From Nocardioides sp. S-1144 (lineage in GTDB: Bacteria; Actinomycetota; Actinomycetes; Propionibacteriales; Nocardioidaceae), in NCBI RefSeq assembly GCF_005954645.2, contig NZ_CP040695.2, forward strand, positions 1,426,001 to 1,490,000: 64,000 bases of DNA, written 5' to 3'. This document shows positions 38,901 to 62,209 of this stretch, in pieces; the stretch's first letter is position 1; each line of letters opens with the position of its first letter. Both the position numbers and the translations under genes were made by a program. A model generated the notes under the pieces. That model made no database searches, was not told the DNA's origin, and worked only from the letters and a program-made list of their open reading frames with translations.

Positions 38901-39440
38901 ATGAGCCAGCAGACCAGCGCGCCGACCGGGGGTCCCCGCGTCGGGATCGTGATGGGGTCCGACTCCGACTGGCCGGTGATGAAGCTCGCCGCGCTCGCGC
39001 TGGAGGAGTTCGACGTCGCCCACGAGGCCGACGTGGTCTCGGCCCACCGGATGCCCGAGGAGATGCTGGCCTACGGCAAGGAGGCCGCGGCCCGCGGACT
39101 GTCGGTGATCATCGCCGGCGCCGGCGGCGCCGCGCACCTGCCCGGCATGCTCGCCTCGGTCACCCCGCTGCCCGTGATCGGCGTCCCCGTGCCGCTGAGC
39201 AACCTCGACGGTCTCGACTCGCTGCTCTCGATCGTGCAGATGCCCGCCGGCGTGCCGGTCGCGACCGTCGCCGTCGGCGGCGCGCGCAACGCCGGGCTGC
39301 TCGCCGTCCGGATCCTCGCGACGTCCGACCCGGCCCTGCGCGAGCGGATGGTGGCCTTCCAGGCCGACCTGAAGCGCTCGGCGCAGGAGAAGGGTGCGGC
39401 CGTGCGCGGGGAGAGCGGTGGCCGGCGCCTCGGCTTCTAG
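38901..39440 (+). CDS. purE: N5-carboxyaminoimidazole ribonucleotide mutase
   Basis: 179 residues, class I Pur[15 protein letters not shown] near 13, [11 protein letters not shown] and [17 protein letters not shown]. It moves the carboxyl group made by PurK to C4 of the imidazole ring. A short hydrophilic tail (about 165-179) extends past the core. The 3' end overlaps the likely start of the next membrane protein gene by about 23 nt. Confidence 0.97.
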
Positions 39441-40572
39441 CCCCACGCACCCCGGCGCGCGGCTCGTCGGGATCGACGTCGCCCGCTGCGTGGCGCTGCT
39501 CGGCATGGTGGCCACCCACGTCCTGGACGCGCGCACCCCCGCCGGTGACGTGGCCGCGTCGCAGTGGCTGGCCGGCGGCCGCGCCTCGGCGCTGTTCGCG
39601 GTGCTCGCCGGGGTCTCGCTGGCGCTCGTCACCGGCCGGCGGACGCCGTTCGCGGGCCGCCGGCGGCTCCGGGCCACCCGGGCGGTCGTCGTCCGGGCGG
39701 TGCTGGTGGGCCTGGTCGGACTGCTGCTCGGCGAGCTCGACACCGGGCTCGCGGTGATCCTCACCTACTACGCGGTCCTCTTCGTGCTGGCCCTGCCGTT
39801 CCTCGGGCTGCGGGCTCGGCCGCTGCTGGTGCTGGCCGTCGGCTGGGCGGTCCTCGCCCCCGTCGTCAGCCACCTGGTGCGTCCCGGCCTGCCGGACCGC
39901 GGCACCGCCAGCCCGGCCCTCGACCAGCTCGCCGAGCCCGGGCGCCTGCTGTCCGAGCTGCTGCTCACCGGCTACTACCCGGCCGTGCCGTGGCTGGCCT
40001 ACCTGCTCCTCGGCCTCGCGCTGGGCCGCCTCGACCTCGGGTCGGCCCGCGTCGCCGCGCGGCTGGTGGGGGTCGGGCTCGCGGTCGCGGTGGGCGCGAC
40101 CCTCCTCTCGGGCCTGCTGACCCGCGACCGGTTCGGCGCCGCCGAGCTCGACCGCGTCGCCACCGGCATGTGCGGCCAGACCCCGACCGACGACGGCTGG
40201 CGCTGGCTCCTCGTCGTCGCGCCGCACTCGACGACGCCGTTCGACCTCCTCCAGACCGGCGGCAGCGCCGCGGTCGTGGTCGGTCTGTGCCTGCTGCTGG
40301 TCGCCGCGGTCTCGGCCGTGGCCGGGCCGGGGGAGCGGGCGGTGCAGGTGCTGTGCGGGGCCGGGACGATGACGCTGACGCTCTACAGCCTGCACGTCGT
40401 CATGCGCACCGACGCCGTCTGGCCGGCCGAGGAGCCGGACAGCCTCGTCTGGCACGTGCTGGTGCTGGCGTGGGTCGGCGCGCTGTACGCCGCCCTCGAC
40501 CGCTCGGGACCACTCGAGCGGGTCGTCGCGCTCGCCTCGCGGCGGGCCGGCGGCACCACCGGTCGCGGATGA
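39418..40572 (+). CDS. DUF1624/DUF418-like membrane acyltransferase
   Basis: 384 residues with about ten hydrophobic helices. N-terminal [23 protein letters not shown] is the signature of heparan-alpha-glucosaminide N-acetyltransferase-like and DUF418 proteins, thought to acylate sugars across the membrane. The start is GTG 39418 with GGGGAGA just upstream; an alternative GTG at 39394 would lengthen it by eight residues. Overlap with purE suggests co-transcription, though the functions are unrelated. Confidence 0.78.
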
Positions 40573-40575
40573 CGT

Positions 40576-40617
40576 CGGCACCGTGAGCCCGGGACCGTGA
40601 ACCCGGCACCGTGAGCC
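40576..40617. repeat. 14-bp tandem repeat, three copies
   Basis: CGGCACCGTGAGCC, CGGGACCGTGAACC and CGGCACCGTGAGCC in direct tandem, then a degenerate fourth copy. It lies in the 165-bp gap between two membrane acyltransferase genes. No function can be assigned; the rest of the gap shows nothing else. Confidence 0.8.
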
Positions 40618-40737
40618 CGGCACCGGCGACGGCCGGGCCCGCCCGCCGGTGGCGCCGCCGCGACGTCGTACCAGCGGGCGGTGCCCCGGTACCTGCGGAC
40701 GATCCGGGCCGCACCCCCGGGCCGCGACGATCCTCGG

Positions 40738-41829
40738 GTGCCCGAGACCTCGCTGCCGCCCGTCCCACGACCTGACCCGCGCCCGGCCCGCGAGCAGTGG
40801 GCCGACGTCGCCAAGGGGGTCTGCATCGTGCTCGTCGTGCTGTGGCACGTGACGCGCAAGGACTACCTCGTCCTCCCGTGGGACGTCGGGGTGCCGGTCA
40901 CCGGTGCCTGGGGCCGGGCCTCGGAGCTCCTGCTGCCCGTGCGGATGCCGCTGTTCTTCCTGATCTCCGGGCTCTTCGCGGCCCGGCAGGTGCAGCGGCC
41001 GTGGCCGGAGGTGTGGCGGCGCCGGGTGGCCCCGCTGGTGTACCTCTTCGTGCTCTGGACGCTGGTCCACACCGTCGTCCTGCAGGCCACGCCCGGCTTC
41101 GACACCGCGATCGCCGACGGTCCCCGCGCGCTCCTCGTGCAGCTGAGCGTGACGCCGGGCAACCTCTGGTACCTCCTGGCCCTCGCCCTCTACGTCGCCG
41201 TGGCCCGCGCGACCCGGTCCGTCCCGCACTGGGCGCTGGCCGGCGCCCTCGTGCTCAGCGCCGTGGCGAGCGCCGGACTGGTGCCCACCCCGGGGAACCG
41301 GGCCGGTCTGCTGGTCAACCTGGTCTGGTTCCTGCTCGGCGTCCGGGCCGGGCGACCGGCGGCCCGCCTCCCCGCCGTGGGCCGGCTCGCCCGCGCGCGC
41401 CCGCGGGTGGTGCTGGCGGTGGGCGCGGTGTTCGCCGGGGCGGCCGGGCTCTGGCAGGCGCTGGACGCCGACGCCTGGGTCGGCGTCCGGCCGGTGCTCG
41501 GCCTGCTCGGCATCCTCGCCGGCGTCGCCGCCGCCGGCGTGCTGGCCCGCTCCTCGGCCGGGCCGGCCCTGGCCGCGCTCGGCCGGCGCACCCTGCCGGT
41601 CTACGTGCTGCACCTGCCGCTCGTGGCGCTGGTGCACCTGGCCGCGGCCGACCTCGTGGCCGGCCCGGTCGCGCGGTCGCTGCCGCTCGCCGTGCTCTAC
41701 CCGGTGCTCGTCAGCGCCGTGGTGGTCGTGGCCTGCCTCGCCCTGCACCGGCTGGCGGGGGCGCTCGGGGCGTGGTGGCTGTTCACCGCGCCGTGGTCGG
41801 GGCGGGCGGCGCCGGCGCGGGCCACCTGA
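40738..41829 (+). CDS. acyltransferase-3 family membrane protein
   Basis: About 363 residues with ten or so helices. N-terminal EQWADVAKGVCIVLVVLWHVTRK contains the conserved His of acyltransferase family 3, and PLFFLISGLFAARQV follows. These proteins O-acylate extracellular sugars or lipids. The start is uncertain: GTG 40738 is chosen because a GACGAT box lies 6 nt upstream, but an in-frame GTG at 40681 is possible. Converges on the response regulator gene with a 15-bp gap. Confidence 0.82.
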   Translation: MPETSLPPVPRPDPRPAREQWADVAKGVCIVLVVLWHVTRKDYLVLPWDVGVPVTGAWGRASELLLPVRMPLFFLISGLFAARQVQRPWPEVWRRRVAPLVYLFVLWTLVHTVVLQATPGFDTAIADGPRALLVQLSVTPGNLWYLLALALYVAVARATRSVPHWALAGALVLSAVASAGLVPTPGNRAGLLVNLVWFLLGVRAGRPAARLPAVGRLARARPRVVLAVGAVFAGAAGLWQALDADAWVGVRPVLGLLGILAGVAAAGVLARSSAGPALAALGRRTLPVYVLHLPLVALVHLAAADLVAGPVARSLPLAVLYPVLVSAVVVVACLALHRLAGALGAWWLFTAPWSGRAAPARAT

Positions 41830-41844
41830 ACAGCCCCGGGACGC

Positions 41845-42522
41845 TCAGCGACCGACGAGGCCGTGCTCGTGGGCGTAGACGACGATCTGGACCCGGTCGC
41901 GCAGGCCGAGCTTGCGCAGGATCGCCCCGACGTGGGTCTTCACCGTCGACTCGGAGGCGAAGACCAGGCCGCCCACCTCGGCGTTCGAGAGCCCGCGCGC
42001 CACGGCGGCGAAGACCTCCCGCTCCTTGTCGGTGAGGTCCAGGTACGCCGCGGGGGTCGGCGTCGGCGGCGTGAAGCTGCCCGCCAGCAGCGAGGTCAGG
42101 TCGCCGGGGGCCAGCACGGCGTTGCCGGCGTGGACGGTGCGGATGGCGTCGGCCAGCATCGGCGGCGTGGTGTCCTTGAGCAGGAAGCCGCTGGCGCCGT
42201 GCCGGATCGCGGTCGCGGCCCGGTCGTCGAGGTTGAACGTCGTCAGCACGACCACCCGCACCGGCCGCGCCCCGGTCGCCGCGCGGCGGGCGACCCGGTC
42301 GGGAGCGAAGATCTGGCGGGTCGCCTCGACGCCGTCCATCTCGGGCATCCGGACGTCCATCAGGACGACGTCGGGGACGAGCTCGTCGACGAGCCGGACG
42401 GCCTCGAACCCGTCACCGGCGGTGCCGACGACGCCCATGCCGTCCTGGGCGTCGACGATGACCCGCACGCCCTCGCGGAACAGGTCCTGGTCGTCGACGA
42501 GGAGCACCCGGATGTCGGTCAC
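41845..42522 (-). CDS. NarL/LuxR-type response regulator
   Basis: 225 residues. Receiver domain: acidic pair in VLLVDDQDLFREG, phosphorylated Asp in PDVVLMDVRMPEMDG, and switch Lys in GFLLKDTTP. The C-terminal LuxR helix-turn-helix (about 160-220) has LTDKEREVFAAVARGLSNAEVGG and ESTVKTHVGAILRKLGLRDRVQIVVYA. It is 7 nt downstream of its histidine kinase. Together they follow the D,D-dipeptidase/racemase/ligase operon on the same strand, so it may regulate envelope genes. Confidence 0.93.
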   Translation of the reverse strand: MTDIRVLLVDDQDLFREGVRVIVDAQDGMGVVGTAGDGFEAVRLVDELVPDVVLMDVRMPEMDGVEATRQIFAPDRVARRAATGARPVRVVVLTTFNLDDRAATAIRHGASGFLLKDTTPPMLADAIRTVHAGNAVLAPGDLTSLLAGSFTPPTPTPAAYLDLTDKEREVFAAVARGLSNAEVGGLVFASESTVKTHVGAILRKLGLRDRVQIVVYAHEHGLVGR

Positions 42523-42529
42523 GGCCCCA

Positions 42530-43801
42530 TCATCCCGGGGCGCCCGCGCCGTCTCGGAGCCGGCTCACGGGCAGCCAGGCGGTCACGGTGAACGTGACGA
42601 CGGCGTCCTCGTCGCGGCGGCGGACGTCGAGCCGGCCGCCGACCGCCTCGAGCCGCTGGCGCATGCCGTCGAGGCCACGACCGGTGTCGTCGACCTCGCC
42701 GGTCCCCTCGGGCGGCGCGGCGAGGACGGCGTTGCGGACCTCGATGCGCAGGTCGCGGGCGTTGGTGCCGTCGGGCCAGTGCCGCTCCACGAAGACCGGC
42801 TCGTCGCGGCTGCCGTGCTTCACGGCGTTCGTCAGCATCTCCTGCAGCACGCGGTAGGCGACGACCTCCAGCTCGGGCGGCAGCGGCTGCGGCGTGCCCA
42901 GCTCGCGCGAGACGACCTCGTGGCCGCCGGCCCGCACGCCCTCGACCAGGGTGTCGAGCGGGCGCGGTGCGGCGCCGGCGACGGAGTCGGGCGTGAGCAC
43001 CGCGCGCACCTCCTGCAGCGAGGAGCGCGCGGACGTCGCGATGGTCGCCATCGTCTGCTTGAGCCGGGCGGGGTCGTCGTCGGGCAGGTACTGCGCCGAC
43101 TCCGCCTGGGCCAGGATGACGGCGAGGGAGTGGCCCACCACGTCGTGCACGTCGCGGGCCAGCCGGGCCTGCTCGTCGCGCAGCCGGGCGATCTCGAGGG
43201 CCTGCCCCGACTCGCGGACCGCGCGCGCGGCCTCCTCCTCGGCCCGGGCCTGCGAGACCTGCGAGGCGCGGGCCCGGTCGCTGAACCGCATCGCGATACC
43301 GGCCAGCCAGGGCAGGCCGAGCAGGCCGACCACGATGACCACGGCGCCGATGCGCCAGGAGTCGCCGAAGCGCGAGGCCGTGTCGAGCAGGGCCTGGTAG
43401 CCGACGACGTCGAGCAGCGGCAGGTAGTCCTGGGTGGCGACCAGGAGCACCAGGCAGGACGCCGCCCCCGGCACCGACAGGGCGCTGGCGGCCACGGTGA
43501 GCGGGTGGCCCCAGCGGGCCGAGGCGAAGGCGACGACCACGAAGGCCGACTGCACCAGCATCAGCTGGGTGTCGCTGGCCAGCTGCAGCAGCAGTATCAG
43601 CCAGGCCAGCGCGAGCGCCGGCCCCGGGAAGCGGCGGCTCGCCGCCACCGCGCCCGCGGTCGCGACGGCCACGAGCGCCAGGGCACCCCGTCCGTGGGTG
43701 CTGTAGACGTAGGGCGTCGAGACCGCCTCGGCCAGGCCGAGCGCCAGGACGAGCACGCCGAGGGCGATCGTCGGCGCCCACCGCCTCACCCGGTCGTCCA
43801 T
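42530..43801 (-). CDS. sensor histidine kinase (HisKA_3 type)
   Basis: 423 residues. Five to six N-terminal helices (about 10-175), a coiled-coil linker, then the HisKA_3 phosphoacceptor LARDVHDVVGHSLAVILAQAE (His near 225) and a HATPase domain (YRVLQEMLTNAVKHG; DTGRGLDGMRQRL). The short loops between helices suggest it senses something in or at the membrane, as in LiaS/DesK-like kinases. The ATG at 43801 was preferred over a longer in-frame start. Starts 143 bp after the ddl stop. Confidence 0.92.
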   Translation of the reverse strand: MDDRVRRWAPTIALGVLVLALGLAEAVSTPYVYSTHGRGALALVAVATAGAVAASRRFPGPALALAWLILLLQLASDTQLMLVQSAFVVVAFASARWGHPLTVAASALSVPGAASCLVLLVATQDYLPLLDVVGYQALLDTASRFGDSWRIGAVVIVVGLLGLPWLAGIAMRFSDRARASQVSQARAEEEAARAVRESGQALEIARLRDEQARLARDVHDVVGHSLAVILAQAESAQYLPDDDPARLKQTMATIATSARSSLQEVRAVLTPDSVAGAAPRPLDTLVEGVRAGGHEVVSRELGTPQPLPPELEVVAYRVLQEMLTNAVKHGSRDEPVFVERHWPDGTNARDLRIEVRNAVLAAPPEGTGEVDDTGRGLDGMRQRLEAVGGRLDVRRRDEDAVVTFTVTAWLPVSRLRDGAGAPG

Positions 43802-43944: not shown

Positions 43945-44943
43945 TCACCCGGGCCGGCCCGGCGCCAGCGCGTCGCGGACGAGCAGGTCGAGCAGGTCGG
44001 CGTAGGGCAGCCCGGCGGCGGCGAACATCCGCGGCACCTGGGACCGGGCGGTGAAGCCGGGCATCGTGTTGACCTCGTTGAGCACCGGCCCGGCCGTCGA
44101 CCCCGGGGCCACCTGGTCGGGGAGGAAGAAGTCGACGCGGGCCACGCCGGCACAGCCGAGCGCGTCGTAGACGGCGACGGCGGCGTCCTTGAGGCTCTTG
44201 CGCTCGGTCTCGGAGATCGCGGCCGGCAGCCGGAAGTCGGCGTGGCCGCCGTACTTCTCCTCGAAGCCGAACAGCCCGTCGACGACGATCTCCAGCGCGG
44301 GCGAGACCACCCGCGAGCCGTCGGGCCGGCTGAGCACGGCGACGTCGACCTCCCGGCCCACCACGAGGTCCTCGACCAGGACCCGGTCGTCGAGGGCGAA
44401 GGCCGCGGCGAGCGCGTCGTCGAGGCCCGCCGGCTCGTCGACGAGCGTGACGCCGTGGCTGGACCCCGCGGCGACCGGCTTGACCACGACGGGGTGGGTC
44501 CAGCGGTGGCCGGCGCGGGTCGCCGGCGTGAGGAGCACACCGGGGGCCGTGGCCACCCCGACGGCGTTGGCGACGAGCTTGGTCGTCCACTTGTCCATCG
44601 CCAGCGCCCCGGCGCGCACGCCGGAGCCGACGTAGGGCACCCCGGCGAGGTCGCAGAGCGCGGCCAGGGTGCCGTCCTCGCCGTGCGGGCCGTGCACGAC
44701 GGGCAGCACCACGTCGCACCGGCGCAGCAGGCACGCGGCGCCGGTGAGCCCGACCGGGCGCCCCTCGCGGTCGAGCCAGGTGCCGTGCGGGTCGATGGTG
44801 AGCCGGACGACGTCGTAGGCCGCGGTGTCGAGGTGGTCGGCGACCGAGGCCGCCGAGGCGAGCGAGACGTCGTGCTCGCAGCTGGCCCCGCCGCCGATGA
44901 CGGCGACGCGGATCCGGCCGGCGCCCACGGTGGGGGCGCTCAC
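43945..44943 (-). CDS. ddl: D-alanine--D-alanine (or D-Ala-D-X) ligase
   Basis: 332 residues, ATP-grasp. N-terminal VAVIGGGASCEHDVSL, loop HGPHGEDGTLAAL near 84-96, KPVAAGSSHGVTLV near 155-168, omega-loop FGFEEKY (tyrosine at 231) and C-terminal metal motif NEVNTMPGFT. The EKY form is that of D-Ala-D-Ala and D-Ala-D-Ser ligases rather than D-Ala-D-Lac ligases. The GTG overlaps the racemase stop by 4 nt. As the third gene after a dipeptidase and racemase, it is probably not the housekeeping ligase (inference). Confidence 0.92.
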   Translation of the reverse strand: MSAPTVGAGRIRVAVIGGGASCEHDVSLASAASVADHLDTAAYDVVRLTIDPHGTWLDREGRPVGLTGAACLLRRCDVVLPVVHGPHGEDGTLAALCDLAGVPYVGSGVRAGALAMDKWTTKLVANAVGVATAPGVLLTPATRAGHRWTHPVVVKPVAAGSSHGVTLVDEPAGLDDALAAAFALDDRVLVEDLVVGREVDVAVLSRPDGSRVVSPALEIVVDGLFGFEEKYGGHADFRLPAAISETERKSLKDAAVAVYDALGCAGVARVDFFLPDQVAPGSTAGPVLNEVNTMPGFTARSQVPRMFAAAGLPYADLLDLLVRDALAPGRPG

Positions 44944-46103
44944 GACCGCGCCACCCGGGCGCCGATGCCCGTGACGATCTCGTGCTCGATGGTGCCGGCC
45001 CAGCCCGCCCACTCGGAGACGGTGGGCTCGCCGGCGCTCCCGGGCCCGAAGACGGTGGCGACGTCGCCCGGCTGCACGGCCTCGTCGCCGACGTCGACGA
45101 CGACCTGGTCCATCGAGATCCGGCCGACGACCGGGTGCCGGCGCCCGCGCAGGGCCACCTCGGCGCGCCCGGACGCCACCCGGGGCAGCCCGTCGGCGTA
45201 CCCGAGCGGCAGCAGCGCCAGCGTCGTGGCCCGGCCGGCCGCCCACGCGTGGCCGTAGCCGACGGCGGTGCCGGCGGCGACCCGGCGGACCCCGACCACC
45301 GGCGCGGTGAGGGTCAGGGCGGGGGAGAGGCGGGTGCTGCCGCTGGGGTCGATGCCGACCAGACCGGCGCCGACGCGGCTCATCGTGTGCAGCGCGGCGG
45401 GGTCGGTGAGGGTGGCCGCGGTTGCGGCGAGGTGGCGCAGCGGCGGTCGCAGGCCGGCGGCGCGGGCCTCACCCAGGCCCCACGCGAAGACGGTCCGGGC
45501 GGCGGCGTTGGCCGGGTCCTCGGGGACGTCGGCGCAGCCGAGGTGCCCCATCACCCCGACGACCCGCACCTGCCCGGCCCGCTCGGCGCGGCGGGCGGCG
45601 CGGCACAGGGCGGCCCAGTCGGACGGGGCGGCGCCGTCGCGCGCCATCCCGGTGTCGAGGTGCAGGTGCACCCGGGCGCCGACGCCGGCGCGGGTCACGG
45701 CCGCGAGGTGCGCCGCGCTGGGGACGGCGACGTCGACCTGGTGGCCGATCGCGGCGGTGAAGTCGGCGCCGACCGGGTTCAACCAGCTCAGCACCGGCGC
45801 CCGGACGCCGTCCGCGCGCAGGGCGAGCGCCTCGTCGAGGCTGGTGACCCCGAGCCAGGAGGCGCCGTGCGCGAGCGCCGTCCGGGCCACCGCGGCGGCG
45901 CCGTGGCCGAAGCCGTCGGCCTTGACGACGGCCATCAGCGCGCCGGGGGTCCGTGCCGCGAGGAGGGCGGTGTTGGCCGCGACGGCGTCGAGGTCGACGT
46001 GCAGCCGGGCCCCGGTGGAACGGATGGCCGGGACGGACCGCACGGCCGGTCGCGGTGCCGTCGGCGGCGTCGCGCCGCGGTGGTCGGTCGCGGGCTGGCT
46101 CAT
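44940..46103 (-). CDS. alr: alanine racemase-family enzyme
   Basis: 387 residues, fold-type III PLP enzyme. The PLP lysine is in AVVKADGFGHGA (family usually has Tyr where this has Phe), the second catalytic base Tyr in TAVGYGHAWAAG, and RISMDQVVVDVG follows. In the C-terminal signature, usually TI-x-Y-E-I-x-T-x-I-x-x-R-V, the Tyr is His (GTIEHEIVTGIGARV). Both changed tyrosines contact the cofactor phosphate in known enzymes, so substrate preference may differ from alanine. The start is ATG 46103, overlapping the dipeptidase stop by 4 nt; an N-terminal tail of 30 residues precedes the barrel. Confidence 0.88.
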   Translation of the reverse strand: MSQPATDHRGATPPTAPRPAVRSVPAIRSTGARLHVDLDAVAANTALLAARTPGALMAVVKADGFGHGAAAVARTALAHGASWLGVTSLDEALALRADGVRAPVLSWLNPVGADFTAAIGHQVDVAVPSAAHLAAVTRAGVGARVHLHLDTGMARDGAAPSDWAALCRAARRAERAGQVRVVGVMGHLGCADVPEDPANAAARTVFAWGLGEARAAGLRPPLRHLAATAATLTDPAALHTMSRVGAGLVGIDPSGSTRLSPALTLTAPVVGVRRVAAGTAVGYGHAWAAGRATTLALLPLGYADGLPRVASGRAEVALRGRRHPVVGRISMDQVVVDVGDEAVQPGDVATVFGPGSAGEPTVSEWAGWAGTIEHEIVTGIGARVARS

Positions 46104-46792
46104 GCCGCGACCGCGATCTCGACCGGGCCGTGCAGGGCGTGCGGCGCCCCGGTGAGCAGCGCCCAGTAGCGGTCGCCGTAGGACCAGTGCCACCACTCGG
46201 TCGGGTAGTTCACCAGCCCGGCGCCCCGCAGGACCAGGGCGAGCAGGTCACGGTGGGCACGGGCGTCGGCCCCGATGCCGTCGGCGTCGAGGTAGCAGCG
46301 GCCCTCGCTCTGCTCGGGGGTCGCGTCGATCGGCGTCCCGAGGTCGAGCTCGTCGCCGCAGGCGTCGACGAGGGTGACGTCGACCGCGGCGCCGGCCACG
46401 TGCGGTGCCACGTCGACCGGTGCCACGAAGCGGCTGGTGAGCACGTGCAGGTCGGTGGCCGAGATGCCGGGGTGCCGGGCGCAGAGGTCGGCGGCGTAGG
46501 TGGCGATGATCGCGCGCTGCTCGGCCACGGTGCGGTGGCCCTCGACGACCTTCAGGCCGACGCCGGCCGGCAGGGCGGCCGCCGCGGCGGTGAGCCGCCC
46601 GGCGAGCCCGGCCCGCACCAGCGCCCGGACCGGGGAGAGCGCCTCGGGCAGCCGCACCAGCGGCTCGCCGGTGTCGTGGACCGGCACGGCGCCGACGCGG
46701 GGGTCGGAGAGCAGGATCGTCGTGCTGCTCCCGGCGGCGTCGCTCGCGGCGCGGCGCGGCGGGGGAGCGGGGGAGGTCGTGGCGCGGGTCAT
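46100..46792 (-). CDS. D-alanyl-D-alanine dipeptidase, VanX/DdpX family
   Basis: 230 residues, zinc peptidase M15D. Zinc ligands H131 and D138 in PHVAGAAVDVTL (pattern H-x2-G-x-A-x-D), catalytic E199 and ligand H202 in EWWHW, and R87 in GHR match VanX. No signal peptide: the N-terminal 25 residues are Ala/Thr/Pro-rich but lack a hydrophobic core, so it acts in the cytosol like VanX. First gene of the operon; ATG 46792 lies 7 nt after TAGCGT (46800-46805). It removes free D-Ala-D-Ala. Confidence 0.9.
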   Translation of the reverse strand: MTRATTSPAPPPRRAASDAAGSSTTILLSDPRVGAVPVHDTGEPLVRLPEALSPVRALVRAGLAGRLTAAAAALPAGVGLKVVEGHRTVAEQRAIIATYAADLCARHPGISATDLHVLTSRFVAPVDVAPHVAGAAVDVTLVDACGDELDLGTPIDATPEQSEGRCYLDADGIGADARAHRDLLALVLRGAGLVNYPTEWWHWSYGDRYWALLTGAPHALHGPVEIAVAA

Positions 46793-46870
46793 GGGGGGAA
46801 CGCTAGGAAGCCGCGGCGGCGGCGCCCTCCACCTGAGGTACCGGTGCGCCGACCTGCGGTACCGGGCGGC

Positions 46871-49766: not shown

Positions 49767-51044
49767 CTACGGGCGGGGGATGCCGTTCGGGGTGCACTGG
49801 GCCTTGGTGATGTCGCCGGTGCTGTCGTCGATGATCGCCTGGAAGAGCGGGTCGGCGCGGTCGCGGTCCCAGGTCTCGGCCGACGGACTGGTGACCGGCA
49901 TGGTGCAGGTGAGGTTGTCGCCGGTGCCGGTCTTGGTCATCGCCAGGGCCCAGCGGCCGGCGTCGATGGAGCTGGTGCCCTCGCCGAAGCCGAAGAACGT
50001 CGGGACGGCGCGGTTGAGCTTCCACCAGCGGACCGGGTTGGCGACCGACCACGGCGAGAGCACCTTGTCGCCGATCGCGCCGATGACCTCGCGCTGGCGC
50101 TCGACGCGGGCCAGGTCGCCGAGGGTCGACTGCTTGCGGGAGCGCGAGTAGGCCAGCGCCGTCGCGCCGTCGACCTCCTGGCAGCCCTTCGAGATCTTCA
50201 GGCCGGCCAGCGGGTCCTGGATCCGTTCCTTCGGGCAGACCTCGATGCCGCCGACCGCGTCGACGACGTCCGCGACGCCGCCGAGGCCGATCTCGACGTA
50301 CTTGTCGATCCGGATGCCGGTCTCGTTCTCGAGGGTCTGCACGAGCAGCTCGGGCCCGCCGCGCGAGTAGGCGGAGTTGATCTTGCCCTGCCCGTAGCCG
50401 GGCATGTCGACGATCGAGTCGCGCGGCACCGACAGCAGCACGCTGGGGCCGTCGCCGGTGTGCAGCAGCATGATCGTGTCGGTGAGCTCGGACTTCGGGT
50501 TGCCGGTGCTGAGCTCCTTGCGCTCCTCGGCGCTCAGCCCGGCGCGGGAGTCGCTGCCGACGAGCAGGTAGGTCGTCCCGTCCTGCTCGGCGGGGCGGTC
50601 ACCGTCGGGCTCGAAGGCGACCTGGTCGGCGCTGCGCCAGGTCACGAAGGGCACGGCGACGGTGTAGACCAGCCACAGCAGGAGCAGCACGAGCACGGTG
50701 CGGATCCAGAAGCGGGGCCGGCGCACGCGGCGGGCCCAGAAGCCACCGCCGCCGCCGCGACGGCTCGGCTCGCCGGGACCCGGCGGGACGGGTGGGCCGG
50801 CGGGTGTCAGGGGCTGCTGCGGCGGGGCGTCGTACGGCGTGGGGGCGGGCTGCACCGGGCGCGGCGTGGTCGGCCGCGCGGCCGTGGGCTCGGGACGCTG
50901 CTGGACCGGCATCATCCGGGTGGCCTCGGGCGGCGGCTCGTCGGCGGGCTGCCCGGGAGGTCGGTCGGGGTTGCGGTTGCCTCCGTAGAGCCAGCCGAAC
51001 TCCGGCCCGTCCTGGGGGCCACCGTTCCCGGGGCGGTCGGTCAT
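49767..51044 (-). CDS. LytR-CpsA-Psr family cell-wall glycopolymer ligase
   Basis: 425 residues. Pro-rich cytoplasmic tail (1-115), one transmembrane helix (FWIRTVLVLLLLWLVYTVAVPFV), then an LCP domain: GTTYLLVGSDSRAGLS, DTIMLLH, VLLSVPRDSIVDMPGYGQGKINSAYSRGG, and DGATALAYSRSRKQSTLGDLARVERQREVIGAI. These enzymes transfer polyprenyl-linked glycopolymers onto peptidoglycan outside the membrane. The ATG at 51044 is 8 nt after TACGGT. Divergent from a second LCP gene. Confidence 0.93.
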   Translation of the reverse strand: MTDRPGNGGPQDGPEFGWLYGGNRNPDRPPGQPADEPPPEATRMMPVQQRPEPTAARPTTPRPVQPAPTPYDAPPQQPLTPAGPPVPPGPGEPSRRGGGGGFWARRVRRPRFWIRTVLVLLLLWLVYTVAVPFVTWRSADQVAFEPDGDRPAEQDGTTYLLVGSDSRAGLSAEERKELSTGNPKSELTDTIMLLHTGDGPSVLLSVPRDSIVDMPGYGQGKINSAYSRGGPELLVQTLENETGIRIDKYVEIGLGGVADVVDAVGGIEVCPKERIQDPLAGLKISKGCQEVDGATALAYSRSRKQSTLGDLARVERQREVIGAIGDKVLSPWSVANPVRWWKLNRAVPTFFGFGEGTSSIDAGRWALAMTKTGTGDNLTCTMPVTSPSAETWDRDRADPLFQAIIDDSTGDITKAQCTPNGIPRP

Positions 51045-51101
51045 GGGGCAAGACCGTACCCGTCCCGGGTGCATCGACCCTTGTCGGCGTGCCGTGAGCC
51101 C

Positions 51102-51128
51102 TGTGACCGGTGTGACTGGTGATACTGG
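51102..51128. promoter_or_regulatory. three tandem 9-bp direct repeats between LCP genes
   Basis: TGTGACCGG, TGTGACTGG and TGATACTGG follow each other without gap in the 125-bp divergent promoter region. A similar pair, TGTGACTGA and TGTGAAAGT, occurs before the amidase-like gene at 63 kb. Tandem 9-bp direct repeats suit an OmpR-family regulator such as MtrA (inference). Confidence 0.5.
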
Positions 51129-51169
51129 CGTTCCGTTCTGCTTCCTTCCCCAGCAGAAAGATTGTTCCC

Positions 51170-52594
51170 ATGTCGCCCGTTTCGGAGCGAGCCGCCCAGG
51201 TGCGGTTCCGTCGTGCGCTGTCCCTGATGGCCATGACCCTCGTCGCACCCGGTTCCGCCCAGCTGATCGCCGGCAACCGGCGCGTCGGGCTGATCGCCTT
51301 CTGCAGTGCCGCCGGTCTGCTCGTCACCGCGGTGCTGGGCGGCCTGCTCGCCCTCGTGCACCGCCCGTTCGCCTACTGGGTGGCCACCAGCCCCCCGGCC
51401 CTGTTCTGGATCTACCTGGTGCTCACCGCCGCGGCCGTCGGCTGGGCGGCGCTGTTCATCGACGCCTGGCGCATCGGCGAGCCCCTGTCGTACTCGATGA
51501 CGCACCGCCGGATGGCGGTGGGCGTCAACGGGCTGCTCTGCTTCTCCGTCGCCGGGACCCTGCTCGTCGGGGCGCACCTGGTCGGCGTCCAGCGCGACTT
51601 CATGAACGCCACGTTCGGCGACGGCGAGGCGTCCGGCGCCCACCACGGCCGCTACAACGTCCTGATCATGGGCGGGGACGCCGGCGCCGGCCGCTGGGGC
51701 CTGCGCCCCGACTCGATGACCGTGGCCTCGGTGGACGCCGAGACCGGCAAGACCGTGCTGATCGGGCTGCCCCGCAACATGTCGCACTTCCCGTTCCGCG
51801 AGGGCTCGGTGATGGACGAGCAGTTCCCCGACGGCTTCGACTGCGACGGCTGCATGCTCAACGGCGTCAGCACGTGGGCCGAGGACAACACCGAGCTCTT
51901 CGGCAAGGCCGAGGACCCGGGCGTGGACGCCACGATCATGGCGATCGAGGGCATCACCGACCTCAAGATCAACTACTGGGCGATGGTCAACCTCGAGGGC
52001 TTCAAGGACCTCGTGGACGCCGTCGGCGGCGTCACCCTCAACGTGCGGCAGGAGATCCCGATCGGGCTGCCGGGCGACAAGGTCACCGGCACCATCGAGC
52101 CCGGCACGCGCAAGCTCGACGGCTTCGAGACCCTCTGGTACGCCCGGGCCCGCGACGGGTCGGACGACTACTCGCGGATGGCGCGCCAGAAGTGCGTGAT
52201 GAACGCGATGCTCGAGCAGATCAGCCCCCAGTCGGCGCTGCGCAACTTCCAGCGGATCGCGAAGGCGTCCTCGGAGATGGTCTCGACCAACCTGCCGTCG
52301 TCCGAGGTCGACCGGTTCCTCGACCTCGCCATGAAGGCCAAGGGCCAGAAGCTCGCGACGCTGTCGCTGGTGCCGCCGATGATCGCCACCGCCGACCCCG
52401 ACATCGACCTCGTCCACGCCAAGGTCGCCGAGGCCATCGACCGGGCCGAGGGCCGCGCGCCCGCGACCTCCGACGACGGCGCCAAGAAGCCGAGCAGGAA
52501 GAAGGAGTCGACCAGCGTCACCGGCGGCTCGGTCGGCTCCCTCAAGGAGGGCTACGCCGCCAACGACTCCGAGGACCTCGGCGCCGCCTGCTGA
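51170..52594 (+). CDS. LytR-CpsA-Psr family protein with four N-terminal helices
   Basis: 474 residues. Unlike its divergent neighbour it has about four transmembrane helices (about 20-145) before the LCP domain, which starts at YNVLIMGGDAGAGRWGLRPDSMTVASVD and continues with TVLIGLPRNMSHFPF, a conserved arginine-rich LWYARARDGSDDYSRMARQK and a basic C-terminal tail. This multi-helix form is typical of actinobacteria. Probably attaches galactan or another polymer to peptidoglycan, given the galactan locus nearby. ATG 51170 has no strong ribosome site. Confidence 0.9.
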   Translation: MSPVSERAAQVRFRRALSLMAMTLVAPGSAQLIAGNRRVGLIAFCSAAGLLVTAVLGGLLALVHRPFAYWVATSPPALFWIYLVLTAAAVGWAALFIDAWRIGEPLSYSMTHRRMAVGVNGLLCFSVAGTLLVGAHLVGVQRDFMNATFGDGEASGAHHGRYNVLIMGGDAGAGRWGLRPDSMTVASVDAETGKTVLIGLPRNMSHFPFREGSVMDEQFPDGFDCDGCMLNGVSTWAEDNTELFGKAEDPGVDATIMAIEGITDLKINYWAMVNLEGFKDLVDAVGGVTLNVRQEIPIGLPGDKVTGTIEPGTRKLDGFETLWYARARDGSDDYSRMARQKCVMNAMLEQISPQSALRNFQRIAKASSEMVSTNLPSSEVDRFLDLAMKAKGQKLATLSLVPPMIATADPDIDLVHAKVAEAIDRAEGRAPATSDDGAKKPSRKKESTSVTGGSVGSLKEGYAANDSEDLGAAC

Positions 52595-52724: not shown

Positions 52725-53832
52725 GTGTGATGCCCAGGCACGTTGTGCGATCGGGTACGGCGAGTCCGTAGATAGGTGAAGGCCTCCCGCGGTGGAGTGG
52801 AGCTGTCTAGAAACCGCTTCACCGCAAGGAGGCCTTCATGTCCCACGCTAACGCCGCACTCACTCCACGACACCGTCTACGCCTGGCCAGGTTGATCGTG
52901 GAGGACGGTTGGCCGCCCTCACGGGCTGCTGAGTTCTTCAACGTCACCTGGCGAACCGCCGACAAATGGGCTGAGCGCTACCGCGCCGAAGGACCGGCCG
53001 GGATGAACGACCGATCCTCAGCCAGGCGCACCCAGCACGCCAAGACCCCGGCCCCGGTGGTCCGCAAGATCGTCCACCTGCGGTGGAAGCAACGCCTCGG
53101 CCCGGTCCCGATCGCCGCCAAGCTCAACATGCCGGCCTCGACGGTGCACGCGGTGCTGACCCGGTGCCGGTTGAACCGGCTCTCCCACATCGACCGGGTC
53201 ACCGGGCAACCCGCACGCCGCTACGAACGCGAAGGCCCCGGGGAGCTGATCCACGTCGACGTCAAGAAGCTCGGCAACATCCCCGACGGCGGCGGCTGGC
53301 GCTACCGGGGCCGGGCAGCGGGAAAGAAGAACCGGATCCTGACCAAGGACCGCACAGGCGTCGCGAACATCTACGGCAACCCCAAGGTCGGGACCTGCTT
53401 CGTGCACACCGTGATCGATGACCACACCCGCCTGGCCTACGCCGAGTGCCATGACGACGAGACCGCCGCGACCGCCGTGAAGGTCCTGCAACGCGCCGTG
53501 ACCTGGTTCGCTGAGCGCGGCGTCACCGTCGAGCGAGTCCTCTCCGACAACGGAAGCGCCTACAGATCCCACCTGTGGCGTGATACCTGCGCCGACCTCG
53601 ACATCGCGGTGAAGAAGACCCGGCCCTACCGTCCCCAGACCAACGGCAAGATCGGGCGCTTCCACCGCACCCTGGCCGACGGCTGGGCCTACCGCCGCCT
53701 CTACAACTCCGAGAACACCCGCCGAGCAGCACTGGCAGGATGGCTCCACCAGTACAACCACCACCGGCCCCACTCAGCCCTCGCAGGCCATCCACCCATC
53801 ACCCGGTTGGACAACCTGGCTGGGCATCACAC
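52725..53832 (+). mobile_element. IS481-family insertion sequence
   Basis: About 1108 bp, bounded by inverted repeats GTGTGATGCCCAGGCA (left) and the complement of GTGTGATGCCCAGCCA (right), 15 of 16 matching. CTAG flanks both sides (52721-52724 and 53833-53836), the target duplication expected for IS481-like elements. It carries one transposase gene and has split a 51-bp repeat array. Near-identical ends suggest a recent insertion. Confidence 0.9.
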
Positions 53833-53836
53833 CTAG
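52838..53836 (+). CDS. IS481-family transposase, catalytic Glu replaced by Gly
   Basis: 332 residues. N-terminal helix-turn-helix domains (about 10-120), then an RNase H-like DDE domain with D141 (ELIHVDVKK) and D237 (VLSDNGSAYRS). The third acidic residue, 35 residues after D237, lies in the family motif QTNGK-(V/I)-E-R-F-H-R-T-L but here reads QTNGKIGRFHRTL, with Gly at 273 (codon GGG, 53654-53656; GAG expected). The enzyme should be unable to transpose. The stop codon TAG is not part of the IS: it is made by the CTAG target duplication. Confidence 0.93.
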   Translation: MSHANAALTPRHRLRLARLIVEDGWPPSRAAEFFNVTWRTADKWAERYRAEGPAGMNDRSSARRTQHAKTPAPVVRKIVHLRWKQRLGPVPIAAKLNMPASTVHAVLTRCRLNRLSHIDRVTGQPARRYEREGPGELIHVDVKKLGNIPDGGGWRYRGRAAGKKNRILTKDRTGVANIYGNPKVGTCFVHTVIDDHTRLAYAECHDDETAATAVKVLQRAVTWFAERGVTVERVLSDNGSAYRSHLWRDTCADLDIAVKKTRPYRPQTNGKIGRFHRTLADGWAYRRLYNSENTRRAALAGWLHQYNHHRPHSALAGHPPITRLDNLAGHHT

Positions 53837-54795: not shown

Positions 54796-55707
54796 GTGCA
54801 GGTCGTGGCGGTGGTGGTGACGTTCAACCGGCTGCCCCTCCTCGAACGGCTGCTCGACCGGCTCCTGGAGGTGCGGGAGGTCGCCGAGGTGCTCGTGGTC
54901 GACAACGCCTCCACCGACGGCACGGGGGAGTGGCTGCGCGGCCGGTTCCCCCACGGCGGCCCCGACCGCGTCCGGACCCGGACCCTCGACTCCAACACCG
55001 GCGGCGCGGGCGGCTTCGCCACCGGGCTCACCTGGGCGATGGAGCGCGACGCCGACCGCGTCTGGCTGATGGACGACGACGCCGTGCCGGAGCCCGACTG
55101 CCTCGCGCTGCTCCTCGAGCGGCCCGACCTCGACTTCTGGGGCCCGGCCGTGGTCGCGGAGCAGGACGCCTCCCGCCTGTGCTTCCCGATCCGGCTCCCC
55201 GGCGGCACCCGGGTGGTGCACCGGATGGCCGAGGTCGAGGCCGCCGCGCGCGACGGGCTGATCCCGGGCGTGGTGATCCCGTTCAACGGCGTCCTGGTGA
55301 CCCGCGAGCTCGTCGAGCGGATCGGCGTCCCGCGGGCGGAGTTCTTCATCTGGGGCGACGACGTCGAGTACCTCTGGCGGGCCGAGCGGGCCGGCGCCCG
55401 GATCGCGACCGTCGTCGAGGCGATCTTCACCAACCCGGCCACCGACGACCTCGGCACCCCGATGATGTTCGGCCGCACGACGTACAACCACACGCCCAGC
55501 GACCTCAAGCACTACTGCATGGCCCGCAACAACACCGTCAACCTGCGCGACTACCGCGGCTGGCCGTTCGTGCTGATGTTCTGGGTCAAGACCGTCTGGT
55601 TCTACCTGTTCACCCGCCGCCGGCCGGGCCGGATCGCGATGAGCGCGCGGGCGGCGTGGGCCGGGCTGCGCGGCGACTTCACCGGGCACCGGAAGTACCT
55701 GGCGTGA
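54796..55707 (+). CDS. GT2 galactofuranosyltransferase, GlfT1-like (first)
   Basis: 303 residues, GT-A fold. N-terminal VVAVVVTFNRLPLLERLLD, DNASTDGTGEWL, the NTGGAGGFATGLTWAM loop typical of GlfT1-like enzymes, and metal-binding DDD in VWLMDDDAVPEPDCL. C-terminal amphipathic helices (TVWFYLFTRRRPGR) attach it to the membrane. In mycobacteria GlfT1 adds the first galactofuranoses to the lipid-linked primer. The GTG at 54796 follows TAGGGT (54783-54788) by 7 nt. Overlaps the next GT2 gene by 4 nt. Confidence 0.88.
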   Translation: MQVVAVVVTFNRLPLLERLLDRLLEVREVAEVLVVDNASTDGTGEWLRGRFPHGGPDRVRTRTLDSNTGGAGGFATGLTWAMERDADRVWLMDDDAVPEPDCLALLLERPDLDFWGPAVVAEQDASRLCFPIRLPGGTRVVHRMAEVEAAARDGLIPGVVIPFNGVLVTRELVERIGVPRAEFFIWGDDVEYLWRAERAGARIATVVEAIFTNPATDDLGTPMMFGRTTYNHTPSDLKHYCMARNNTVNLRDYRGWPFVLMFWVKTVWFYLFTRRRPGRIAMSARAAWAGLRGDFTGHRKYLA

Positions 55708-56612
55708 GCGCGGCCGAGACGGTCGCGGTCGTCGTGGTGACCTACAACCGCGCCGACCTGCTCGAGGGCATGCTCGCCGGCCTGGCCGCGCTCGAGCCGG
55801 CGCCCGACGCGGTGATCGTGGTCGACAACCACAGCGACGACCACACCGCCGACGTCCTCGCCCGGGCCGGTCTCCCGGGGCTGCAGGTGCTCCGCACCGA
55901 CGACAACCTGGGCGGTGCCGGCGGCTTCCACCTCGCCGTCCGCACGGCCCACGAGCAGGGCTACGACCGGATCTGGCTGATGGACGACGACGTCCTCCCC
56001 GCGCCCGACTGCCTGGCCAGGCTGATGGCGGTCGACGAGGCCTGCCTGACGTCGGTGCGCGAGGACCGCAGCGGCGCCCTGGTCGAGAAGGCCGCGACCC
56101 GCTTCGACCTACGCAACCCGCTAGCGATCAAGCCGAAGACCGCGATGGTCGAGACCGACTTCGGCACCCGCGCGGCGATGCCCGAGCTGGTCGAGGTGCA
56201 GAACGTCGCCTTCGAGGGCTTCCTGGTGCGCCGCGAGGTCGTCGACGCGATCGGGCTGCCCGACCCGGCCTACTTCATCTTCTACGACGACGTCGACTTC
56301 GCCGTGCGCGCCCGTCGCGCCGGGTACCGCATCTGGGCGGTCCGCGACGCCGTCCTGGTGCGCCGGCTCGACTTCGACCAGCAGCACGACCTGGCGGGCT
56401 GGAAGGGGTACTACATGTACCGCAACCTGTTCGTCGTGCACCGCCGCTACGGCGAGAACGCGCTGGTGCGGGCCAAGCCGTGGCTGATCGCGCTGGCCGT
56501 CGTCCTGCTCAGCCCGCTGCGCGGTGGCCGGGCCGAGGCCCGCAACGTCGTCCGCGCGGCCCGGGACTCGCGCACCCTGACCCGGCTCTCACCCGAGGCC
56601 CGCCCCCGCTGA
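55704..56612 (+). CDS. GT2 galactofuranosyltransferase, GlfT1-like (second)
   Basis: 302 residues, a close structural parallel of the preceding gene (AVVVVTYNRADLLEGML, DNLGGAGGFHLAVRTA, IWLMDDDVLPAPDCLARL), so the pair probably arose by duplication. Two related enzymes suggest successive sugar additions or different linkages. It starts at GTG 55704, overlapping the previous stop (GTGA). Its own stop codon is the first two bases of a palindromic repeat array. Confidence 0.88.
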   Translation: MSAAETVAVVVVTYNRADLLEGMLAGLAALEPAPDAVIVVDNHSDDHTADVLARAGLPGLQVLRTDDNLGGAGGFHLAVRTAHEQGYDRIWLMDDDVLPAPDCLARLMAVDEACLTSVREDRSGALVEKAATRFDLRNPLAIKPKTAMVETDFGTRAAMPELVEVQNVAFEGFLVRREVVDAIGLPDPAYFIFYDDVDFAVRARRAGYRIWAVRDAVLVRRLDFDQQHDLAGWKGYYMYRNLFVVHRRYGENALVRAKPWLIALAVVLLSPLRGGRAEARNVVRAARDSRTLTRLSPEARPR

Positions 56613-56765
56613 CCCGTCCCTGATCAGCGACGGGTCGGCACCAAACTCGCGCTGACCCGTCAGTGATCAGCGACGGGTCGGCACGAAAAGCCCGCTGACC
56701 CGTCAGTGATCAGCGACGGGTCGGCACCAAATCCGCGGTGACCCGTCAGTGATCAGCGACGGGTC
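56611..56765. repeat. 43-bp tandem repeat, four copies, same palindrome as at 223-420
   Basis: Copies start at 56611, 56654, 56697 and 56740, exactly 43 bp apart. Each has GACCCGTC, a core TGATCA, and GACGGGTC. Linkers differ from the first locus (GGCACCAAA-type instead of ACCTCACC-type). The array spans the whole gap between the convergent GT2 and PAP2 genes. Confidence 0.9.
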
Positions 56766-56769
56766 AGGG

Positions 56770-57846
56770 TCAGGCGACGGGGGTGGAGGTGACCTCGTCG
56801 GTGACCTCGGCGCGCTTGAGCCGGGGACGGAGCCCGTCGTGGTTGCCGGTGGCGAGGGCGGCGAGCCAGACGGTGACCGACCCGAGGGCGACGCCGCCGA
56901 GGACGTCGACGAAGTAGTGCCAGCCGAGGTAGAGGGTGGCCACGATCGTGAGGCCGAGGAAGACCCACGACACCACGCGGATCCAGCGCGCCAGGCCGAC
57001 GTACTGGGCGAAGACGCAGATCGTCACCATGATCCCGGTGTGCAGCGACGGGAAGGCCGCGATCGTCTGCAGGGTGCCGGAGCCGAAGACGTCGCCGACG
57101 ACCGCGACGCGGTCGTCCCACATGCTGTTGGCGAGGTCGGTGTTGTAGGTGTGGTCGAGGGCGTCGAACTGGCCGCGCTGGGCGGTGGTGTACACCGGGC
57201 CGACCGACGGCAGCATCAGGTAGACCGCCGCGCCGAGCAGCCAGTCGAAGGCCACCGCGGTGACGTACCACGAGCTGGCGGTCCGCGACCGGGTCCAGAC
57301 CAGCGCGATCGCGATGCTCACCGGCACCAGGGCGATCCAGATGAAGTAGACGCCGGAGAAGACGTGCGAGGCGATGCCGGTGCCGAAGAGGTCGTGCATC
57401 AGGACGGCGGGGTCGTGGCCGAACCACAGCACCTGGTCGATCTTGCGGAACTCGGCGTCCCAGTTGTGGCCGTTGACGAACGGCACGAAGCTCTTGAGGT
57501 TCCGGAAGGCGGCGTAGGTGAGGTACCAGGCGCCGATGCCGCTCAGCGCGAAGAGCCAGTGCGCCTTGGTCCAGCGCTCGCGCATGATCCCGCGCAGCGT
57601 CTCGACCGCGCCCCGGGAGCCGTGGGTCAGGCGCCAGACCAGCCGCGGCAGGACGTCGAGCGCGATGGCGCCGAAGACGATCGCCGGGAAGCGGATGTAG
57701 CCGGGCACGAAGTTGTCGGGGTCGCGGATCGGCAGCTCGGCGACGGCGGCGAACACGACGGTCGCGACCGCCATGGCGATGCCGGCCGCCCAGGCGTACC
57801 CGAAGTTGCGCTCGAGAACGGCGCGCACGCCCACAGACTCCTGCAT
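56770..57846 (-). CDS. PAP2-superfamily membrane phosphatase
   Basis: 358 residues with about eight helices. The PAP2 signature is spread over MLPSVGPVYTT, the second motif FPSLHTGIMVT (Ser-Leu-His) near 265, and LGWHYFVDVLGGVALG near 315. Members dephosphorylate polyprenyl or inositol lipids, or act as inositol phosphotransferases in mycobacterial cell-wall synthesis. Its place inside a galactan locus suggests lipid carrier recycling (inference). ATG 57846 is 7 nt after TAAACT (57854-57859). Confidence 0.88.
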   Translation of the reverse strand: MQESVGVRAVLERNFGYAWAAGIAMAVATVVFAAVAELPIRDPDNFVPGYIRFPAIVFGAIALDVLPRLVWRLTHGSRGAVETLRGIMRERWTKAHWLFALSGIGAWYLTYAAFRNLKSFVPFVNGHNWDAEFRKIDQVLWFGHDPAVLMHDLFGTGIASHVFSGVYFIWIALVPVSIAIALVWTRSRTASSWYVTAVAFDWLLGAAVYLMLPSVGPVYTTAQRGQFDALDHTYNTDLANSMWDDRVAVVGDVFGSGTLQTIAAFPSLHTGIMVTICVFAQYVGLARWIRVVSWVFLGLTIVATLYLGWHYFVDVLGGVALGSVTVWLAALATGNHDGLRPRLKRAEVTDEVTSTPVA

Positions 57847-58011
57847 GGGCCCGAGTTTACGCGTCGTGGCCCGCCACGACGGCATCCTCGGACCCGGCGT
57901 GGGCGGGGTCACGCCCGGTCGCGCCCGCGCCCGCGCGGGCGCCGAACCGTGGTTGTGACACGGTCGTGGGCGTTGCGGAATCGGGGGAGGCTGGTGGCAT
58001 CCGTAGACTGA

Positions 58012-61307
<3,296 letters not shown>

Positions 61308-61317
61308 GCGAGATGCG

Positions 61318-62208
61318 ATGACCGACACCACCACCGACGCGGCGCGGGCGCAGGCCGAGAAGGACCTGCCGCCGCTGGCCCCGCCGACGGCCGACAACGG
61401 GCTCAAGGCGGTCTTCCAGCGGCGCTACCTGCTCAAGCTGCTGGTGACGCGCGAGATCAGTGCGCGCTACCAGGGCTCGGTGCTCGGTCTGCTGTGGTCC
61501 TACATCAACCCGCTGTCGCAGTTCTGCATCTACTTCTTCATCATGGGCACGATCTTCGCCCTGCACCGGAACGTGCCGAACTTCGCCATCCACATCTTCT
61601 CGGCGCTGATCATCGTCCACTTCTTCAACGAGACGTTCAACGCCGGCACCCGCTCGATCGTGCGCAACCGCCAGATCGTGCAGAAGATGGCGATGCCGCG
61701 GGAGATGTTCCCCGTCGCCTCGATGCTGGTCTCTCTGTACCACGTGCTCCCGCAGGTGGTGATCCTCGTGGTGGCCTGCCTGTTCTCCGGCTGGCGACCC
61801 GACGTCACCGGGGTCGTCTGCTTCTTCATCGCCCTGGTCCTGATCAGCGTGCTCGGCACCGGGCTGGCGCTGATGTTCAGCGCGGCCAACGTGTTCTTCC
61901 GCGACGTCGGCAGCGTGGTGGCCATCCTGACCAACGTGGTGCGCTTCGGCGTGCCGATGATCTACAGCTACGAGATGGTCGACCAGCGGTTCGGCAGCTT
62001 CGCGCCCTACTACATGCTGAACCCGCTCGCGAACGCCGTGATCCTGTTCCAGCGGGCGTTCTGGACCGGCAGCACGACGCAGGAGACGGTCATGCCCGAC
62101 CACCTCGTCGAGCGGGGGCTGGTGATGGTCCTGGTCTCCGTGGTGGTGCTGGGCATCGGCCAGCTGGTGTTCAGCCGGCTCGAGAACAAGATCCCCGAGA
62201 GGCTCTGA
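61318..62208 (+). CDS. ABC-2 transporter permease, Wzm type (galactan export)
   Basis: 296 residues with six helices. After a 35-residue cytoplasmic tail comes RRYLLKLLVTREISARYQGSVLGLLWSYINPLSQ, the Wzm/TagG signature, then helices ending in LVFSRLENKIPERL. It pairs with the ATPase encoded 1 nt downstream to move lipid-linked galactan across the membrane. Ten nt separate it from the GlfT2-like gene. Confidence 0.93.
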   Translation: MTDTTTDAARAQAEKDLPPLAPPTADNGLKAVFQRRYLLKLLVTREISARYQGSVLGLLWSYINPLSQFCIYFFIMGTIFALHRNVPNFAIHIFSALIIVHFFNETFNAGTRSIVRNRQIVQKMAMPREMFPVASMLVSLYHVLPQVVILVVACLFSGWRPDVTGVVCFFIALVLISVLGTGLALMFSAANVFFRDVGSVVAILTNVVRFGVPMIYSYEMVDQRFGSFAPYYMLNPLANAVILFQRAFWTGSTTQETVMPDHLVERGLVMVLVSVVVLGIGQLVFSRLENKIPERL

Positions 62209-62209
62209 C

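Follow-up and report, generated by a model that had tools for sequence, protein, structure and literature searches.

A conserved vanX-alr-ddl operon with its own two-component system in Nocardioides: a candidate D-Ala-D-X precursor switch resembling VanC/VanG

Why should a bacterium keep a second racemase and a second ligase of the D-Ala-D-Ala branch beside an enzyme expected to destroy D-Ala-D-Ala, with a two-component system following on the same strand? The question is raised by a five-gene operon, vanX-alr-ddl-kinase-regulator, of the soil actinobacterium Nocardioides sp. S-1144 (GCF_005954645.2). It lies on the minus strand, from 46792 to 41845, of the window, by which we mean the whole stretch of 64,000 nt analysed here (NZ_CP040695.2, 1,426,001-1,490,000, forward strand). 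The sequence and its open reading frames give the following features:

46826..46864, minus strand: putative tandem operator CGGTACCGCAGGT-8nt-CGGTACCTCAGGTGGAGG, two ACCTSAGGT-type boxes with starts 21 bp apart
46800..46805, minus strand: probable -10 element TAGCGT, 7 nt 5' of the vanX ATG
46100..46792, minus strand: predicted VanX-like zinc D-Ala-D-Ala dipeptidase (M15), 230 aa (Pfam Peptidase_M15, 52 bits)
44940..46103, minus strand: alanine-racemase-family PLP enzyme, His replacing the specificity Tyr (TIGR00492, 240 bits; Pfam Ala_racemase N and C)
43945..44943, minus strand: predicted D-Ala-D-X ligase, ATP-grasp (TIGR01205, 263 bits; Pfam Dala_Dala_lig N and C)
42530..43801, minus strand: HisKA_3 sensor kinase (Pfam HisKA_3 and HATPase_c)
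41845..42522, minus strand: NarL/LuxR-type response regulator (Pfam Response_reg and GerE; NarL model, 150 bits)

We propose, at a probability of about 0.6, that this operon is an inducible D-Ala-D-X precursor switch, X probably being Ser, which resembles the VanC/VanG vancomycin-resistance systems of enterococci and is independently built. A description of the operon was not found in the open-access literature searched.

A sequence-only reading of this DNA had noticed the 4-nt overlaps between the vanX-, alr- and ddl-type genes, followed by a kinase and a regulator on the same strand. Both observations are real: the three genes are joined by ATGA and GTGA, Pfam confirms the assignments, and the names of all five proteins agree between Pfam and NCBIfam profile searches. 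The arrangement is far from chance, its order being repeated, with the kinase in the same position, in 40 of 80 vanX loci retrieved from many families of Actinomycetes; vanX-alr-ddl alone stands in 14 more. The order is alr-ddl-vanX in Kribbella, and in Promicromonospora ddl and alr are divergent and upstream of vanX. The closest named relative locus is that of Nocardioides sp. 1609, with a dipeptidase 91% identical to ours. Because the flanking genes encode an RF-1-domain protein, a CoA-binding protein and an unrelated acyltransferase-3 (AT3), membership of a biosynthetic cluster is unsupported. Elsewhere in the window, a transposase-like gene, IS481 type by appearance (52838-53836, plus strand), lies directly beside two LytR-CpsA-Psr-like genes (49767-52594). 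A further cluster (54796-62989, plus strand), galactan-type by appearance and judged from translations only, codes for several glycosyltransferases, a protein resembling UDP-galactopyranose mutase, a PAP2-like membrane protein and an ABC exporter pair.

The sequence-only reading had staked its case on the presence of second ddl and alr genes. Both were found: the genome, one contig of 4.43 Mb that is 100% complete, has a separate housekeeping ddl at C1:3111701 and a separate housekeeping alr at C1:1272323. The operon genes are therefore not the sole copies, and the operon is accessory; nor do its enzymes have the Tyr that housekeeping Alr and Ddl carry at their specificity positions. Among 118 genomes of the genus, operon-type ddl (at least 65% identity) occurs in 45, the rest having only the housekeeping type of ∼45% identity. 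Operon-type alr accompanies it in 44 of these 45 genomes, the exception being a cut contig (Fisher p = 8e-32), and close vanX in 38 (Fisher p = 4e-24); in the 73 other genomes operon-type ddl, alr and vanX were all not found at that identity level. The seven operon genomes without close vanX, one of them a cut contig, would work, if at all, without the operon dipeptidase. Among 296 genomes drawn evenly from the phylum there was only one further close ligase, at 56% identity, and the operon is therefore patchy. In two relatives (L152 and L153; genomes G033 and G042) operon genes lie between gpsA and the housekeeping ddl, next to the latter; a search of the whole G033 genome found no vanX, and there the promoter is kept before alr.

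The VanX residues that had been claimed for the dipeptidase are all present, namely the Arg of EGHR, the His and Asp of APHVAGAAVD, and EWWH, and these active-site residues (Arg, His/Asp, Glu/His) are invariant in 40 homologues. The best PDB match of an AlphaFold model from the 40 homologues (pLDDT 88) is VanX (1r44, Z 16.7), clearly above VanY (Z 11.7) and VanXYC (Z 10.9). The predicted model and the invariant residues together place the protein within the VanX/VanXY fold, with the corresponding active site; the NCBIfam VanX model gives it only 31 of 320 bits. Judged by the model, the protein would be a VanX-type enzyme cleaving D-Ala-D-Ala. A second VanX-like (M15) gene of this genome (C1:3668566-3669183), 50% identical to operon vanX, lies 3' of a trehalose-6-phosphate-synthase-like gene and near another kinase/regulator pair.

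The ligase carries the motifs LFGFEEKY and TARSQVP. The FEEKY pointed out earlier is thus present; the Phe and Gln at two specificity positions had not been mentioned. We take these positions to be those of F250 and R322 in VanC2, which Healy and co-workers reportedly described in 1998 as D-Ser determinants, and they presumably correspond to Tyr210 and Leu282 in DdlB numbering. In our alignment the first is Phe in 64/64 operon ligases versus Tyr in 39/39 ordinary Ddl, and the second is Gln in 64/64 versus Met, Val, Ala or Gly in 39/39: the Phe of the D-Ser pair is found throughout and its Arg is replaced by Gln throughout. VanG has Phe and Arg at these positions, as does VanA, in which the omega-loop Lys-Tyr is lost; the Lys-Tyr is kept in all 64 operon ligases. 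The protein lies outside the Van D-Ala-D-Ser ligase family, scoring 224 bits with the D_ala_D_ser model versus a cut-off of 520, and 240 bits with the VanG model versus a cut-off of 495. In a tree made by a quick method and containing only two Van sequences, the main operon group and Kribbella form a branch of their own (support 92, not starred) that the Promicromonospora ligases adjoin, and VanG and VanA are paired in another part of the tree (support 99). In Micromonospora (L069, L070, L089, L090, L091) we observed a ddl-vanX pair without a racemase, whose ligase is of another type and has a third residue combination, Phe at the first position and Met at the second.

Alanine specificity of Alr is reported to be held by a Tyr (Tyr354 in Geobacillus, Tyr364 in M. 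tuberculosis), which is reportedly Asn in VanT (PMC3485190). When TIEHEIV of the window racemase is aligned with TIHYEVV of 1xfc and ITNELL of VanT 4ecl, the window protein has His for Tyr and 4ecl has Asn. This position is His in 58 and Asn in 4 of 62 operon racemases, and Tyr in 30/30 other Alr. An annotated alanine racemase, 4y2w, carries Gln there, so loss of the Tyr does not by itself prove that serine is used. The enzyme had been said to lack a membrane domain, and it is indeed a soluble protein with His, different from the VanT-type membrane serine racemase with its AT3 fusion and Asn; the vanT-G model gives it 199 bits versus a cut-off of 460. A quick tree with few Van sequences unites the operon racemases in a single clade (support 97), nested within actinobacterial Alr and apart from VanT. 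Our VanC1 and VanT probes retrieved the PDB chains 4fu0 and 4ecl, on which the comparisons rest, and a plasmid search for VanC/VanT references returned VanA/VanB and general Ddl/Alr instead. Since both trees place the operon enzymes apart from VanG/VanA and VanT, the likeness to VanC/VanG is best read as convergence, not as membership.

VanT is a fusion of an acyltransferase-3 domain with a serine racemase, and mutations linked to vancomycin resistance have been reported in its acyltransferase part (PMC12423673); vanT mutations are also known from evolved C. difficile (PMC11326576). One orthologous AT3 gene stands exactly between ddl and kinase in 18 of 41 five-gene loci. An NCBIfam search of these AT3 proteins found no VanT match, only a weak one to SucT, so they are VanT-like by domain, and specific kinship to the VanT membrane domain is unsupported. 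The gene is missing from this slot in the window, and the window's own convergent AT3 gene (40681-41829), considered as its counterpart, has no significant similarity to it and is therefore not counted as part of the operon. Convergent with the operon, the window carries an HGSNAT_cat and an Acyl_transf_3 gene side by side, both for transmembrane acyltransferases (39394-41829, plus strand); the window-type AT3 gene also adjoins the operon in L013 and lies upstream in L085.

The kinase and regulator are of the NarL type, as the sequence-only reading had it: Pfam and NCBIfam give a HisKA_3 kinase and a Response_reg/GerE regulator, not an OmpR-type VanRS pair. The N-terminal half of the kinase is hydrophobic, with no large extracellular domain apparent in the sequence, and the regulator is 76-86% identical across five-gene loci of Nocardioidaceae and Jiangella. 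Upstream of vanX stand two CGGYACCTSAGGTGGAGG-type boxes 21 bp apart, then TTCCTAGCGT, then the ATG. Of 42 five-gene loci, that of the window among them, 20 have both boxes with no more than 2 mismatches, versus 0.1 of 42 expected in shuffles, a comparison that is not blind, because the pattern was composed after viewing the window and a few relatives. The two-box pattern occurs in 0 of 18 vanX loci without the full five-gene set; roughly half of the five-gene loci have it in degenerate form or not at all, and many of these keep the proximal box and have a different distal one. A genome-wide count provides independent support for the operator: an exact single box is present in 10 of 45 operon genomes versus 0 of 73 others (p = 3e-5). 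In most loci listed, TTCCTAGCGT lies at a constant distance from box and ATG, and in L152, which lacks vanX, the same box and TTCCTAGCGT promoter stand before alr. The co-occurrence suggests that the operon regulator binds these putative boxes, and the -10 placed 7 nt before the vanX ATG would give a leaderless operon transcript. The only other exact box in the genome (C1:1179467-1179484, in L210, C1:1174000-1185500) precedes a gene for a DUF6518 membrane protein of 213 aa, lies as far from a TAGGTT -10 and the ATG as in the operon, and is conserved in the nearest relative's genome (L222); the DUF6518 protein is a possible second member of the regulon.

How might these parts work together? The membrane-embedded kinase would sense an envelope insult, most likely an antibiotic that binds D-Ala-D-Ala, upon which the NarL-type regulator would bind both conserved boxes and activate the leaderless promoter. 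The VanX-like enzyme, to judge from its modelled fold and active site, would then remove the D-Ala-D-Ala made by the housekeeping Ddl. With its changed specificity residue, the racemase would supply, in place of D-Ala or in addition to it, a different D-amino acid, most likely D-Ser; the ligase, altered at both positions, would join it to D-Ala, and MurF would add the D-Ala-D-Ser to the precursor, so that antibiotic affinity falls and glycopeptide resistance could follow. We favor this precursor switch because housekeeping ddl and alr are separate, operon-type alr and vanX accompany ddl in 44 and 38 of its 45 genomes (of 118) and all three are missing from the other 73, the specificity residues are cleanly separated from those of ordinary enzymes, the closest fold is that of VanX, an AT3 gene lies within 18 of 41 operons, Lys-Tyr is kept, and the operator co-occurs with the kinase and regulator. 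Counted against it are the racemase His in place of the VanT Asn, the Gln of 4y2w, the ligase Gln in place of the VanG Arg, the genomes without close vanX (7/45), and the loss or degeneration of the two-box operator in about half of the loci.

Some of these points could be accommodated by the same switch with a last residue other than D-serine, such as a residue with a side chain that pairs with the ligase Gln and needs the room left by the lost racemase Tyr. The combination of His and Gln is unlike VanT and VanG, and the Tyr is also lost in racemases for bulkier residues, Lyr having Thr and Bar having Ala at this position (PMC3485190); however, His is itself still bulky, and four relatives with the same ligase type have the Asn of VanT, and we consider a non-serine residue unlikely. 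We would give a similarly small chance to a stress-induced duplicate of the D-Ala branch, in which drug-insensitive Alr and Ddl sustain D-Ala-D-Ala under D-cycloserine or a similar drug and the dipeptidase recycles. The two targets of D-cycloserine are Alr and Ddl (PMC5717164), both operon enzymes are altered near the active site, and the missing vanX in some operon genomes would fit. Yet most genomes have in the same operon a VanX-fold enzyme expected to destroy the very product to be sustained, and the changes in ligase and racemase fall on positions that discriminate D-Ser.

The dipeptidase might also serve ordinary wall recycling, degrading D-Ala-D-Ala from turnover and leaving Alr and Ddl to balance D-Ala pools. 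VanX-like genes do stand alone in 12 of 80 loci (Streptomyces, Nonomuraea and relatives), and this genome has a second M15 gene (C1:3668731). For such a task, however, the housekeeping alr and ddl would suffice, and one would not expect strict co-occurrence, a dedicated two-component system with an operator, or specificity residues that are changed throughout; recycling seems to us quite improbable.

For the precursor switch, we put the odds at about even that a D-Ala-D-Ser (or D-Ala-D-X) system evolved independently in Actinomycetes, with racemase and ligase derived from actinobacterial Alr and Ddl and convergent on the specificity sites of VanT and VanG, AT3 recruited as a separate gene, and NarL-type envelope-stress control. 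If this is true, there have been at least two origins of the D-Ala-D-Ser strategy, which has a chromosomal form in soil Actinomycetes. The natural variation (racemase His or Asn, ligase Gln or Arg, AT3 fused, separate or absent) turns two questions into testable ones: which residues determine specificity for D-Ser, and what role the acyltransferase part of VanT plays.

It is instructive to compare the operon with known systems. The VanC-like parts list of the sequence-only reading is strengthened by the second alr and ddl, the changed specificity residues, the AT3 gene of relatives and the conserved operator; the locus is nonetheless no VanC operon, with the ligase outside the VanG/VanA branch, the racemase among actinobacterial Alr and the regulators NarL-type. 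Like the operon, VanC/E/G/L/N combine dipeptidase, racemase, ligase and two-component system with separate housekeeping alr and ddl; VanG shares the Phe at the first ligase position, VanT has likewise lost the Alr Tyr, and its AT3 domain resembles the AT3 gene in many relatives' operons. In contrast, their ligases and racemases are separate lineages, with Arg in VanG versus Gln and Asn in VanT versus (mostly) His; VanT is a membrane fusion, whereas the operon racemase is soluble, with AT3 separate or absent; their dipeptidase is VanXY and their regulators are OmpR-type, versus VanX type and NarL type; and the order dipeptidase-racemase-ligase-kinase-regulator is unlike theirs. VanHAX of actinomycetes and enterococci shares the VanX-type dipeptidase and an accessory ligase, VanA having Phe at the same position. 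It has a vanH dehydrogenase, however, where the operon has a racemase, and VanA lacks the omega-loop Lys-Tyr that the operon ligases keep (64/64), and on these grounds we rejected a D-Ala-D-Lac operon. By domain type, the two-component system resembles LiaSR/VraSR, with a NarL-type regulator and a HisKA_3 kinase apparently without a large extracellular domain, but differs from them in sitting among genes for precursor enzymes.
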